A stretch of 64,000 bases of DNA from Tremella fuciformis (Eukaryota; Basidiomycota; Tremellomycetes; Tremellales; Tremellaceae), in contig CP136492.1 of NCBI GenBank assembly GCA_032768795.1, positions 372,001 to 436,000 of the forward strand, read 5' to 3'. This document shows, piece after piece, positions 31,920 to 41,570 of the stretch (the stretch's first letter is position 1; each line of letters starts with the position of its first letter). Both the position numbers and the translations under genes were made by a program. Below the pieces are notes generated by a model, which had not been told where the DNA came from, made no database searches, and saw only the letters and a list, made by a program, of their open reading frames with translations.

Positions 31920-32728
31920 ATGCCGCCCGACCCAAAAGCATCGTCGCGCTCCCAGCGCCCGTCGTCGTCCTCGCAATCTCGCTCATCCGGGCGACCACCC
32001 AGCAGTTCCCAGCGCCCCTCCAGCAGCTCCCAACAGCCCTCCTCCTCCTCCCGCTCCAGACCCAAGTCGTCCGAAGATATACGTCAAGCAGAGTACGAGA
32101 AGTTCCTCGCCTCGACGCTCCCCATGCACCTCGGCGTGCTCTTCCCGCCCTTCCGTGAGCTGTGCGAACTTACGGGCCTGACGCCGCGGGACATGGCCCT
32201 GGCCCTCGCGCCATGCCTGCTGGCTCTGCACGTCAGCCTGCCGCTCAAGGTGCAGCCGCACATCACGTACTTCCTCATGATCCAGCCGCTCAATAACACG
32301 CTCAAAAGTCTCGCTGATACCAAGCGCCTCGAAGCGGGCCTGCACGCGCCTCAGTGGTTGGGTTTCTGGCTCTTCTGGTTCGCATACTCTGGCCTGCGCG
32401 GCTGGGTGGGCGTCTGGCGCCCGGCATGGATGCGCGTTGTCGAGCTGGGCGGGCTGGTGGGCGTGGTCAGTATGGCGGGGCCGTGGTGGTCCCGTGGAGG
32501 CATGGTGAGTATGTGCGCTTCATATGTGGGTGTTGCTAATCGCAGCGCGGGCCGGACAGCGAGGAGTACAAGAAGGCGCTGGAGCGGGAGGAGGCAGAGG
32601 GGAAGGAACGGGAGGAGAAGGAGGCGAAGCGGGCCAAGGAGAAGGAGCAGAAAGAGACAAAGCAGCGGCAAGACGAGGAGAGGCGGAGGAGGAAGAAGGC
32701 AGAAGAGGCCAAGCGTCAAAAGGCGTGA
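31920..32728 (+). CDS. Unrecognised protein with hydrophobic core and charged coiled-coil tail
   Basis: Two exons, 31920-32504 and 32546-32728, separated by a 41-nt intron with a GTGAGT donor; 255 residues. The N-terminus is a Ser/Arg/Pro/Gln-rich disordered tract. The centre has LCELTGLTPRDMALALAP, then hydrophobic stretches (CLLALHVSLPL, WLGFWLFWFAYSGL, VVELGGLVGVVSMAG) that could be two or three membrane helices. The end is a highly charged Glu/Lys/Arg helix (KALEREEAEGKEREEKEAKR and on) ending KRQKA, likely a coiled coil. The stop overlaps the 3' end of the minus-strand gene 32716-41570 by 13 bases. Family not recognised. Confidence 0.65.
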
Positions 32729-38700: not shown

Positions 38701-41570
38701 CATCGACACCCTTCAGAGCTCAAGCTTGATGACGAATCCTGGACAGAAGCTTTTTCTCGCTGTACTGAGGACCACCCAGAGGGGCACCAAGACACATTGC
38801 CCAAGCGACCCATCCGTCAACAACAGGGTGACAATGAAAACGACAGTGACTCAGAGTTTTCTGAGGGTGAAGAAGTCAATGACCACGAGCTTGATGACTG
38901 GCAAGTTCTGGCTGGAATGGGCCCTCAGTTTGATGAAGATGGGTGGAATGGGCCACTGCTTGGAGCACGTGATATTGATACTTCCCACGATTGGGAAGCA
39001 GTGGGGAGGGAGTGGGGATCAGATGGTATAGGAGAGAGGGCAAGCTACTTAGAAACCGAACGCAAGAAGGTGAGCAGTGGCCTACAATCCACTGCATACT
39101 GTGAGCTGACCAAGCAGTCTCAGCCTTCTGTAGCTCGCAACACTGTCGATCCCCAACTACTCAACACCACACAGCGCCTCATCTTTGACAAGGTCTTGCG
39201 CCATGCCAACCGTCTGCTCTCTGGAGAGTCAGTCCCTCAAATACTCCTCAACATCGATGGGACAGCAGGAACAGGCAAATCCTTCCTCATTGACGCCATA
39301 TCCCAAGCTCTTCAAGGGCTCCAATCTGGGCAGCACAACAATCTCGACTTCAGCACAAATCCCATTGTCCGCCGGCTTGCCCCCACGGGTGTGGCGGCAT
39401 TCAACATTGCTGGTTCAACATACCATGCTGCCCTTGGTCTTGGAGGCTCAATAGAGGAAAGTCATGACAAGCTTGGAGAGGGAAAGCTTGCCAGCCTCCA
39501 GGAAGAGTGGCATGGGACACGATACCTCATCATTGATGAGAAAAGCATGGTTGGAAGGGCGGCCTTGGGGAGAATCAACCTTGCTCTTGGTCAAATCTTT
39601 CCGTCGACAGCGTACTTGCCCTTTGCCGGTCTGTCTGTCCTGCTCATTGGCGACTTTGGTCAACTGCCCCCTGTGGGAGACACTCCACTGTACAACACTG
39701 CACGCTCGACAAAAACCTCCTATCTAGGCAGGCTCAGCAACATTGGCCGAGATATCTACCTTGCTTTCACTGAGAGCGTTCAGCTTGATGCTGTTATGAG
39801 GCAGGAAGGCTCCGACCCTACCACCACTGCCTTCAAAGCAACCCTTGCTCGCCTGCACACCGGGACACCTCAACAGGAGGACTACACCCTTCTGTCCTCT
39901 CGCTTCTGGGGGAACCTTTCCCCGGCATCTCAGCAGGCCTTTCAAGATGCTGTATGTCTTTGTGCAACAAAGCAGAGTGTCTCCGAGATCAACCTACACA
40001 CTTTGGCTCGCTCTGGACAGCCTGTACTGCGCTCTCTGGCTCAGCACACAGGGGTAGGAGCAGCCCAGGCTTCAGAGGAACAGGCACAGGGGCTTGCTCC
40101 TGCTGTCTTCCTCATGATTGGTGCTCAAGTCATGCTTTCTCGCAACCTCTGGATCGAGCAGGGATTGGTCAATGGCACCAGGGGCACAGTATATCAGATT
40201 GGGCTCTCACCATCTGAGCCTCCTCATCAATCTGTTCCTTCTGTGGTCATGGTCGCCTTCCCATCCTACACTGGACCAACACCCTGGCACACCACAGACA
40301 ACATACCACTGGTTCCCATTGTGCCCCATACAGCCAGATGGGAGACAACAAACGGGCAGCGGTGCTCTCGACGCCAGCTGCCACTGCAGCTTGCATTTGC
40401 TATCACCATACACAAATCACAGGGTATGACGCTGGACAAGGCAGTGATTGATCTTGGTTCAGCCGACTTCTCAACGGGATTGACATTTGTGGCAATCTCA
40501 AGAGCAAGATCTCTGGAGGGCCTTGCTTTCAAGCCAGGCTTTGATTGGGCAAGATTGAACAGCTTGAACACAGAGAGTAGAAGGGGGGGAGTATCAGGAC
40601 GTGTATTGGCAGCAAGGGATGCGTCTAGACGTCAGATGCTTCAGATGACAGAATAAATGTATAGAGAAAAAGATGAATGACAATGCATAGGTAGACTGAA
40701 TAAAAGTTGATCAAGCATGACTCTGAGTGTTTGATGCATCAGCTGAATCTCAAGTTCATGGGGTGTATGCATGTCATTGTGCTCTCTCTAGCTACTAACA
40801 CTACCTCTATCTGCCTCCATCTCCTGTCTGTAATCATCCCACACAGGATCATCAGCAGCAGGAGTTGGGGGATCTGACCAGGTAGGAGGCTCAGGGGTGG
40901 GGGGAGGAGTGAAGAGAGGAGTTCCAGGTGGGCTTTCTCCTCCTCTGAGTGTTCTCATCTTCCTCAGCCAATCCAGCATCCTACTTTTCCACAAGGGCAA
41001 TCTGAAGGTCTGGGGATTGGTGACTGGACCATTGAAGCTACAAGTCAGCTTTGTGTCATGCCAAGAGAGAGCCTGACTCACAAGGACTTCACAACAGGTC
41101 TTTTGGGCACCCATGGCTTCTTCTCTCCATTGACTTTGCCTGACCCAGGAGGCAGGTAGGATTGTTGCTGGGGTGGGTGATAGGGAGAGTGTCTGACTGG
41201 CTGTGGGCGGCTTTGTTGAGAGCAGGAATGCTTGTGCTCATCATGAGGGTTGGGATGTCGCTTTTTTTGCTCTCTCTGGTGCTGCCTGAGTGCTTTTTTG
41301 AACAAAGCTGACTGGAAAGCCATTCTGATGTAGATGTACAGATGAGAGATGAAAAGTCCAAAATTTTCCGGAGTCAGAGCTACGCCCCATCGGCGACGCG
41401 CCACCGCCGATTTACCTAGTCATGTTGACGCCACCAACCTCCTCGGCCACTTTCTTCTTCACATTCCTTTGTCTCTCACTCTTCTCGTTGTCCACATACA
41501 CCCCCAGCGAAGGCCAGTATGAGTCCGCGCCCGCGTCTCTTGTGATCTGCACGACCAGCTCCGCTCGCAT
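32716..41570 (-). CDS. Small gene (84 aa) whose intron holds three Helitrons
   Basis: Inferred two-exon gene: exon 1 at 41570-41439 (44 codons, MRAELVVQITRDAGADSYWP to KKKVAEE) and exon 2 at 32838-32716 (LCTPFVYLSSRSAFMDNFDT to DVRTCHAF, stop). Both splice sites are phase 0. The donor is GTTGGT and the acceptor is GTGACGCGCAG. Removing the three elements (32876-34184, 34188-34870, 34871-41419) leaves an intron of exactly 59 nt, the normal size here. Codon usage and residue pattern of both halves look coding, and exon 2 ends neatly before the neighbour's stop. Family not recognised. Whether an 8.6-kb intron can still be spliced in this genome is doubtful, so the gene may be inactivated. It is divergent from the Ups gene (77 bp between starts). 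Confidence 0.6.
32876..34184 (-). mobile_element. Non-autonomous Helitron, 1309 bp
   Basis: On the minus strand it begins TCAGCGTAGCTTGCGTAGCT at 34184 and ends with CTAG at 32879-32876 after a hairpin (ATCGCGCA...TGCACGAT), flanked by A and T as Helitrons require. Its 5' end carries an extra 9-bp partial repeat (GCGTAGCTT/GCGTAGCTC) relative to its neighbours. It contains two direct repeats of about 350 bp and no transposase. The 5' end lies head-to-head with the next element, only 3 bp (TGA) away. Confidence 0.82.
33213..33910. repeat. Two direct repeats of about 350 bp inside the Helitron
   Basis: The unit starting ATGCCTGCAAACTTTGTCCC at about 33214 recurs at about 33564 as ATGCCTGCAACCTTTGTCCC, and both run on through the shared TATATATATGAGCTCACACC and the AGCACxxTGGTATTGAGT segment to CTGGCC near 33550 and 33900. 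The two copies differ by scattered substitutions. Minus-strand frames in both give related peptides (HxTQYHGAKDGLLV), which are probably not real proteins. Confidence 0.8.
34188..34870 (+). mobile_element. Non-autonomous Helitron, 683 bp, second copy
   Basis: Starts TCAGCGTAGCTCTTACGGGG after an A and ends ...ATCTACCTAG at 34870. The hairpin ATCGCGCA...TGCACGAT precedes the end. It is the same sequence and length as 19996-20678, inverted. The base after CTAG is the T that begins the autonomous Helitron, so this element inserted at the A/T junction formed by that Helitron's 5' end. Confidence 0.85.
35235..40656 (+). CDS. Helitron Rep-helicase transposase
   Basis: Rolling-circle transposase of about 1793 residues in two exons, 35235-37174 and 37215-40656, joined by a 40-nt intron (GTGAGT donor). 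The N-terminus holds several CxxC zinc-finger-like pairs (CSFCRKQ, CIKCGF, CQSCLE, CFKCKTW, CSTCRE, CENCNEKW, CSRC). The Rep part includes GTPHAFITFSAADLQWPDLH, the HUH motif in SSHVHGLVWL (near residue 813) and the tyrosine motif VASYISKYASKCEK. The helicase is Pif1-like: Walker A NIDGTAGTGKSFLID (near 1330), IIDEKSMV, GDFGQLPPVGD, IHKSQGMTLDKA and FVAISRARSLEGL. All key residues are intact. The true start might be a later ATG (for example MHCSRGQRC), since the first 30 residues are not conserved-looking. Confidence 0.9.
40788..41323 (-). CDS. Helitron-borne accessory protein, Pro-rich, antisense
   Basis: Two exons, 41323-41082 and 41037-40788, spliced through a canonical 44-nt intron (donor GTGAGT, CTGAC branch, TTGTAG acceptor); 163 residues. 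The N-terminal part is basic and His/Gln/Pro-rich (MAFQSALFKKALRQHQREQK). The middle is KRPVVKSFFNGPVTNPQTFR, then LPLWKSRMLDWLRKMRTLRG and a Pro/Thr-rich acidic end (PAADDPVWDDYRQEMEADRG). No family recognised. It lies wholly within the Helitron, convergent with the transposase. The clean splice signals and open frame across both exons argue that it is a real gene. Confidence 0.55.
41385..41419 (+). other. Helitron 3' terminal hairpin and CTAG end
   Basis: The inverted pair ATCGGCG (about 41389) and CGCCGAT (about 41405) can fold as a GC-rich stem, followed by TTACCTAG and the target T. In Helitrons this structure marks the end of the transferred strand. Just upstream is AGAGCTACGC, the complement of the element's 5' subterminal GCGTAGCTCT. 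Confidence 0.8.

Follow-up and report, generated by a model that had tools for sequence, protein, structure and literature searches.

How might a host intron of only 59 nt have grown to 8600 nt, and what would such growth mean for the gene that contains it? This question is raised by a locus of the silver-ear mushroom, Tremella fuciformis, in a 64,000-nt stretch of DNA (the window), which spans positions 372001–436000 of contig C3 in a genome of 28.1 Mb and 11 contigs that we take as haplotype A of the dikaryon Tr01. Here, three rolling-circle transposons, which we denote Helitrons A, B and C, lie between the two exons of a predicted small gene. The reading that we prefer, with a probability of roughly 70%, is that a 59-nt intron in one of the two nuclei was hit very recently by these elements, and that A and B are published 'long terminal repeats' (LTRs) that are still moving. 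The cluster is a striking but explicable product of a recent Helitron burst.

Arrangement, ends and copies of the three Helitrons

On the minus strand, 41570–41439 and 32838–32716 join in phase to give 84 codons and a stop. The interval between them is 8600 nt, and removal of Helitrons A, B and C leaves 59 nt that run GT...AG, with the donor G|GTTGGT and the end GTGACGCGCAG. The first-pass annotation had described this junction and its 84-residue product, three precisely bounded Helitrons (1309, 683 and 6549 bp) and a 59-nt remainder, and the sequence bears out each of these points, the ends and lengths being exact and backed by other copies. It had also called the elements nested, wrongly, because none interrupts another: C (minus), three intron bases, B (plus) and A (plus) stand side by side, B and A abut, and the three elements occupy two TNN^T sites 3 bp apart. 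The features of the locus, followed by a second copy of B, are as follows.

32716–32838, minus strand: exon 2 (40 codons plus stop) of the small gene
32839–32875, minus strand: 3′ part of the host intron, ending GTGACGCGCAG
32876–34184, minus strand: Helitron C, 1309 bp, non-autonomous, in the opposite orientation to A and B
34185–34187: TGA, three intron bases of the host that separate the two target sites
34188–34870, plus strand: Helitron B, 683 bp, non-autonomous, terminal features as in A
34871–41419, plus strand: Helitron A, 6549 bp, autonomous by coding content, starting TCAG and ending CTAG
35232–37174, plus strand: Helitron A, RepHel exon 1 as an open frame that includes DUF6570 (PF20209, 3.9e-16)
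37175–37214, plus strand: Helitron A, its own predicted 40-nt intron, GTGAGT...GCTGACAGTCAG
37215–40656, plus strand: Helitron A, RepHel exon 2, with Helitron_like_N (PF14214, 4.1e-30) and PIF1 helicase (PF05970, 1.2e-19)
41420–41438, minus strand: 5′ portion of the host intron, with G|GTTGGT as donor
41439–41570, minus strand: exon 1 (44 codons, ATG start) of the small gene, single genome match, mixed coding score
19996–20678, minus strand: the other B of the window, 100% identical and flanked by T at −3 and +1

All three elements run TCAG...CTAG and carry a hairpin 8 bases from the 3′ end (the last 45 bases fold at −10.2, −6.6 and −9.6 kcal/mol in A, B and C, respectively), in keeping with the 5′ TC, 3′ CTRR and hairpin just before the 3′ end that mark Helitrons. 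In A, GCGTAGCTCT at base 4 of the 5′ end is complemented by a stretch lying 34 bases short of the 3′ end; the terminal inverted repeats measure 10 (A), 9 (B) and 7 bp (C), with the inner arm 33–34 bases from the 3′ end, an asymmetry that characterizes the Helitron2 variant. A also encodes the Rep domain fused to a PIF1-like helicase (PF14214 and PF05970) that is typical of Helitrons: its 40-nt intron joins both frames into one of 1794 codons, and the exon 2 reading contains HVH and YISKY, which we take to be the HUH and Y2 motifs of Rep. This RepHel also occurs on a public contig (P0003), at 89% identity with 56% covered.

The junctions define a TNN^T target that is not duplicated. T stands at −3 in the 5′ flank and directly 3′ of the element at 29/29 A sites and 20/20 B sites; of the 18 C-family loci, all 12 copies with a 5′ end found have T at −3, and all 17 with a 3′ motif found have it at +1. 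Insertion beside a T on the 3′ side, free of a target-site duplication, is again as expected of Helitrons. The A junctions were read in 29 copies with both ends among the loci examined, of which 11 are tied to B and were omitted from the 'unique' sites, leaving 18; the 29 are not all independent, because C7:1086593 and C7:1110261 have a common 3′ flank. At these sites the 5′ neighbour base is A in 15, G in 10 and T in 4, a spread that departs from the strict A^T target of canonical Helitron1. The 20 B sites include the second copy in the window, added after one B place (L085) proved to hold no identical full B.

Copies of A and B are numerous and nearly uniform. A has 47 exact 5′ ends in the genome, and 47 copies carry an open frame of 1152 aa with one common Pfam score. 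Its 3′ ends, 40 of 48 candidates being scored, are 100% identical over the last 80 bases; its first 120 bases gave 46 matches, 40 at 100% and six, at 86%, that are B 5′ ends (40 of 251 candidates scored in this search, and 40 of 210 in a further genome search). Paired with starts, the 40 scored 3′ ends delimit 38 copies of 6549 bp, one of 6550 bp and one of 6933 bp, the last at contig C2:739848–746780 and 384 bp above the others. On contig C7, A copies at C7:1086593–1136786 are spaced 23,668 bp with flanks in common (starts 1086593, 1110261 and 1133929 on the plus strand, 1106062 and 1129730 on the minus strand), an array that looks like a tandemly duplicated unit with A copies at both of its borders.

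For B, the genome contains 201 exact 5′ and 190 exact 3′ ends; among the 37 plus-strand starts of contig C1, 35 have a partner end at a distance of precisely 683 bp, and an identical 683-bp body was present at 19 of the 20 B places fetched. A and B begin with the same 18 bases. The last 100 bases of C match 18 places in the genome, three of them identical and 1309 bp long, and within C a stretch of about 355 bp is directly repeated (88.8% identity). These features suggest that A is an autonomous Helitron2-like element, and that B and C, which have A's ends, are probably moved by A's RepHel, each new copy entering at TNN^T.

Composites and the probable insertion events

An exact B–A junction is present at 7 of 47 A copies, as against B–B abutment at 3 of 201 B copies (Fisher p 0.00045; one of the three B–B cases, C7:998837, was counted as B because it is absent from the 47 A starts). 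Shorter composites also occur. B[1–94]–A lies inside B at C6:2032122 and stands without the remainder of B at C5:1305490, and B[1–114]–A lies inside B at C2:2799368 and, at C2:2876366, directly precedes the first bases of another B. In the chimaera model of PMC5148889 (Fig. 7 legend), replication starts at an outer 5′ end and stops at an inner 3′ end, and B fragments 5′ of A are the outcome that this model predicts. An element inserted inside or against another could form composites here in the same way. Because B–A abutment so exceeds B–B abutment despite the common first 18 bases, B–A probably moves as a unit, and the B–A pair of the window is probably one arrival rather than two.

We therefore consider two events the most likely history, C entering in one orientation and a B–A composite in the opposite one, their TNN^T targets being separated by 3 bp. 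The cluster is compatible with three separate insertions too, a point that weighs against our reading: three wholly independent arrivals, in which B came later to the 5′ end of A, or A to the 3′ end of B, would also leave junctions that fit TNN^T, including those of a new element 5′ of an existing TCAG start, and both B–B and A-first junctions occur elsewhere. This history is a real competitor, and we place it appreciably below even odds; the excess of B–A over B–B junctions, among elements whose 5′ ends share 18 bases, is what tells against it. Under either history the proximity of C calls for comment. By chance, only 0.003 C copies would be expected to fall within 10 bp of an inserted A or B anywhere in the genome, and sites near Helitrons, or this repeated TGA^T stretch, therefore seem to be favoured for insertion.

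The predicted host gene, its intron and the probable fate of the allele

The 59-nt intron has U2-type features, namely GT...AG boundaries, the genome's donor and branch–acceptor signals, and exons joined in frame. Relative to 44 introns predicted from the window and flanking DNA (30–120 nt search range; at least two of them come from one duplicated locus), its donor score of 5.89 lies at the 14th percentile and its acceptor score of 7.36 at the 55th. The end GTGACGCGCAG is one base off the CTGAY motif, its branch A being some 7 nt upstream of the intron end; among the 24 of 44 predicted introns in which the motif was found, the branch A lies 6–8 nt before AG in 20, and the 40-nt intron of Helitron A shows the motif as well. 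The 44 introns measure 41–118 nt (median 57.5), and 24 are 60 nt or shorter, which corrects an earlier range of mostly 34–60 nt.

Whether the gene is real at all must be weighed, since the Helitrons might simply lie between a convergent and a divergent gene, with the two 'exons' being chance open frames. Several observations lean that way and count against our reading. The 84-aa protein has no homologue in Pfam, the protein collection or the PDB sequences, the collection search having required three shared 5-residue words, which short diverged proteins can escape; as a control, the gene beside the small gene gave two relatives. A PDB antibody chain came up as a candidate relative and was rejected (E 1.6). 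Exon 2 and the convergent plus-strand gene share 13 nt at the latter's coding end. The coding score of exon 1 is mixed, as a second codon model (EM-trained) gives it 1.8 versus 11.8 for an opposite-strand frame. The same model makes exon 2 again the best of six frames, at 7.1, and in the first codon model both exons are the best of six in their claimed frames, at the 99th and 97th percentiles of open wrong-frame segments. The 3′ splice motif obeys the host branch–acceptor rule save for one base, and a two-exon model as good as this one arose at only 25 of 6000 random positions (0.42%), a figure that is only indicative because its thresholds came from the small-gene site itself. On balance, chance open frames seem an improbable explanation, and we hold the small-gene model to be real with good confidence, the gene itself being unproven.

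Two neighbours flank the small gene.

31923–32728, plus strand: conserved gene with a two-exon reading, converging on the small gene
41648–42395, plus strand: PRELI-family gene, divergent from the small gene (PF04707, 1.1e-9, on 41946–42395)

Within the former, 31923–32505 shares 87% identity with a sequence on a public contig (P0001; 74% covered) and 45% identity with a Tremella mesenterica protein over 85%. The PRELI-family gene has an apparent GC–AG intron of 53 nt (41905–41957), read by eye, which ends CTGATTGCGCAG. No RNA family reached the gathering threshold in 32400–42000.

Because the genome's predicted introns are short, near 50 nt, an intron of 8600 nt is unlikely to be spliced well and is probably spliced rarely; on this point we share a doubt already raised over efficient splicing at 8.6 kb. 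Unspliced reading from exon 1 adds eight codons and stops at a TAA (41414–41412) in A's antisense end, for a product of 52 residues. The locus thus offers a direct test of a small-intron spliceosome facing an intron grown from 59 to 8600 nt.

The haplotype A allele may be kept because the other nucleus holds an intact copy, or because the gene is dispensable. PMC10696834 describes a lower haplotype bias in spores over Chr03:400,000–2,670,835, and because this span includes the locus, haplotype A alleles appear to reach viable spores. The first-pass annotation had suggested that the elements might be tolerated for sitting in an intron. As a general rule this finds no support, as a survey of A sites revealed no intron preference, with a two-exon model at only 1 of 28 other paired sites (C6:1165912). 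The survey, whose thresholds were looser than those of the 6000-position control, missed the small-gene site because C had been left in place, and at least three other flanks still held B sequence; it is therefore a rough count. At C6:1165912, a B–A pair perhaps lies in an intron in the orientation of the gene (a 73-nt GTGAGC...CTAATGGCAG model). Long open frames across A sites were considered as genes and set aside, their scores being too low.

A further account would keep the gene functional by stepwise splicing through the Helitron ends, in the manner of introners. In antisense reading, A and B open with CTAG|GTAAAT or CTAG|GTAGAT, which could serve as a donor, and close with GCTGA, which matches the host branch motif; the antisense A–B junction reads GCTGACTAG|GTAGAT; A's terminal donor is in the top 4.3% of all GT; and host introns, including A's own, often have CTGAY before AG. 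The spacing does not fit, as the branch A lies 4 nt from AG at the Helitron junction versus 6–8 nt in 20 of the 24 predicted introns with the motif. A's terminal donor reaches only the 16th percentile of the 44 predicted introns, and C's terminal CTAG falls below all 44 predicted acceptors. We consider this account very improbable, and return to an intron that was invaded and is probably spliced rarely.

Published LTRs, probable present mobility and known systems

Transposon indels between samples taken 18 months and 12 vegetative rounds apart are reported in PMC10696834, among them those of a '683 bp LTR' (16 copies), a '1239 bp LTR' (16) and a '6550 bp LTR' (7). Full-length LTR683 numbers 181 in haplotype A, about sixfold the number in haplotype B. 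LTR683 and B share genome, length and a matching number (181 versus 190–201 ends), and the '6550 bp LTR' shares genome and length with A (6549–6550 bp); they differ in being named LTRs there, whereas B and A are Helitrons. This agreement points strongly to identity, and the published 683- and 6550-bp 'LTRs' are very probably B and A, and hence Helitrons. That A and B might instead be LTR retrotransposons, as the label in PMC10696834 has it, is scarcely credible, since Pfam reports RepHel domains in A and neither reverse transcriptase nor integrase in its two reading stretches, its halves do not match each other as the terminal direct repeats of such elements would (the five listed matches within B are of 14 bp or less), the ends are TC...CTAG with a 3′ hairpin and no target duplication, and the library of that paper, built with LTRharvest and then filtered on size and copy number or repbase hits, could have admitted tandem or nested copies.

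The available main text of PMC10696834 does not mention Helitrons. A 2026 paper on 27 T. fuciformis haplotypes lists helitron among the species' six commonest types, which puts Helitrons as such in print, and LTR683 is absent from its available main text; the accessible literature on Tremella fuciformis and Helitrons does not link LTR683 or the 6550-bp LTR to Helitrons. The published 1239-bp 'LTR', with 221 copies in haplotype B and 4 in A, is also listed as moving (PMC10696834). It may be a Helitron as well; no 1239-bp member of the C family was among the lengths found.

A and B look mobile at present, and their burst is very recent and probably ongoing. Two points speak against this part of our reading. 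The match to the published 'LTRs' rests on genome, length, B count and library method, not on sequences, and haplotype A in PMC10696834 shows 24 deletions versus 7 insertions, an excess that would not be predicted for a pure copy-out mover unless the mycelia were polymorphic. The balance tips slightly towards A and B being a native Helitron pair that transposes now, during the vegetative growth of an edible mushroom, with the copies (of B at least) accumulating mainly in one of the two nuclei within a common cytoplasm. If so, the 683- and 6550-bp indels and the haplotype bias of LTR683 would, to our knowledge, be the first such record in a fungus, and target choice, composite formation and the gain versus loss of Helitrons could be measured in ordinary cultures. 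If the 'LTRs' are Helitrons, existing data (two phased nuclei, 18-month reads and haploid spores) already contain new events, and the LTR share of the genome's repeats needs correction.

Among known systems, FoHeli1 and FoHeli2 of Fusarium oxysporum (PMC5148889) share with A the TCAG start, the 3′ hairpin, insertion beside T and an asymmetric terminal inverted repeat, placed some 20–50 bp from the 3′ end. They also have multiple 5′ termini, as here, which that work attributes to self-insertion (PMC5148889, Fig. 7 legend). They differ in the end (ATTTT versus CTAG in A) and in the target (TNAT, then T/A, versus TNN^T), and unlike them A carries DUF6570 and has many more identical copies in Tremella (PMC5148889). 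Judged by sequence, A, B and C would stand nearest to such Helitron2-like fungal elements, because of the TNN^T target and the asymmetric repeats.

Helraiser, the reconstructed bat Helitron, is said to start with TC. It resembles A in its CTAG 3′ end with a hairpin and in its HUH nuclease, and its bypass of the 3′ end and head-to-tail circles belong among the likenesses (PMC4778049). A, in contrast, is native, and has a subterminal inverted repeat and the TNN^T preference.

Introners, like the elements here, are mobile DNA with splice-like ends (PMC9860276). They are spliced out, whereas splicing of A, B and C would be hypothetical and the spacing at the Helitron junction departs from the rule; Helitrons are not mentioned in the available main text of PMC9860276. 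Few native Helitrons seem to have been published as moving in real time, one being the wheat family Xuan-Feng of 2026 (PMC13286980). There, as is probable here, an autonomous element drives the family, and the family was mobilized in real time; Xuan-Feng, however, belongs to a plant and is promoted by reduced methylation and heat (PMC13286980), whereas movement in Tremella is read from published indels.

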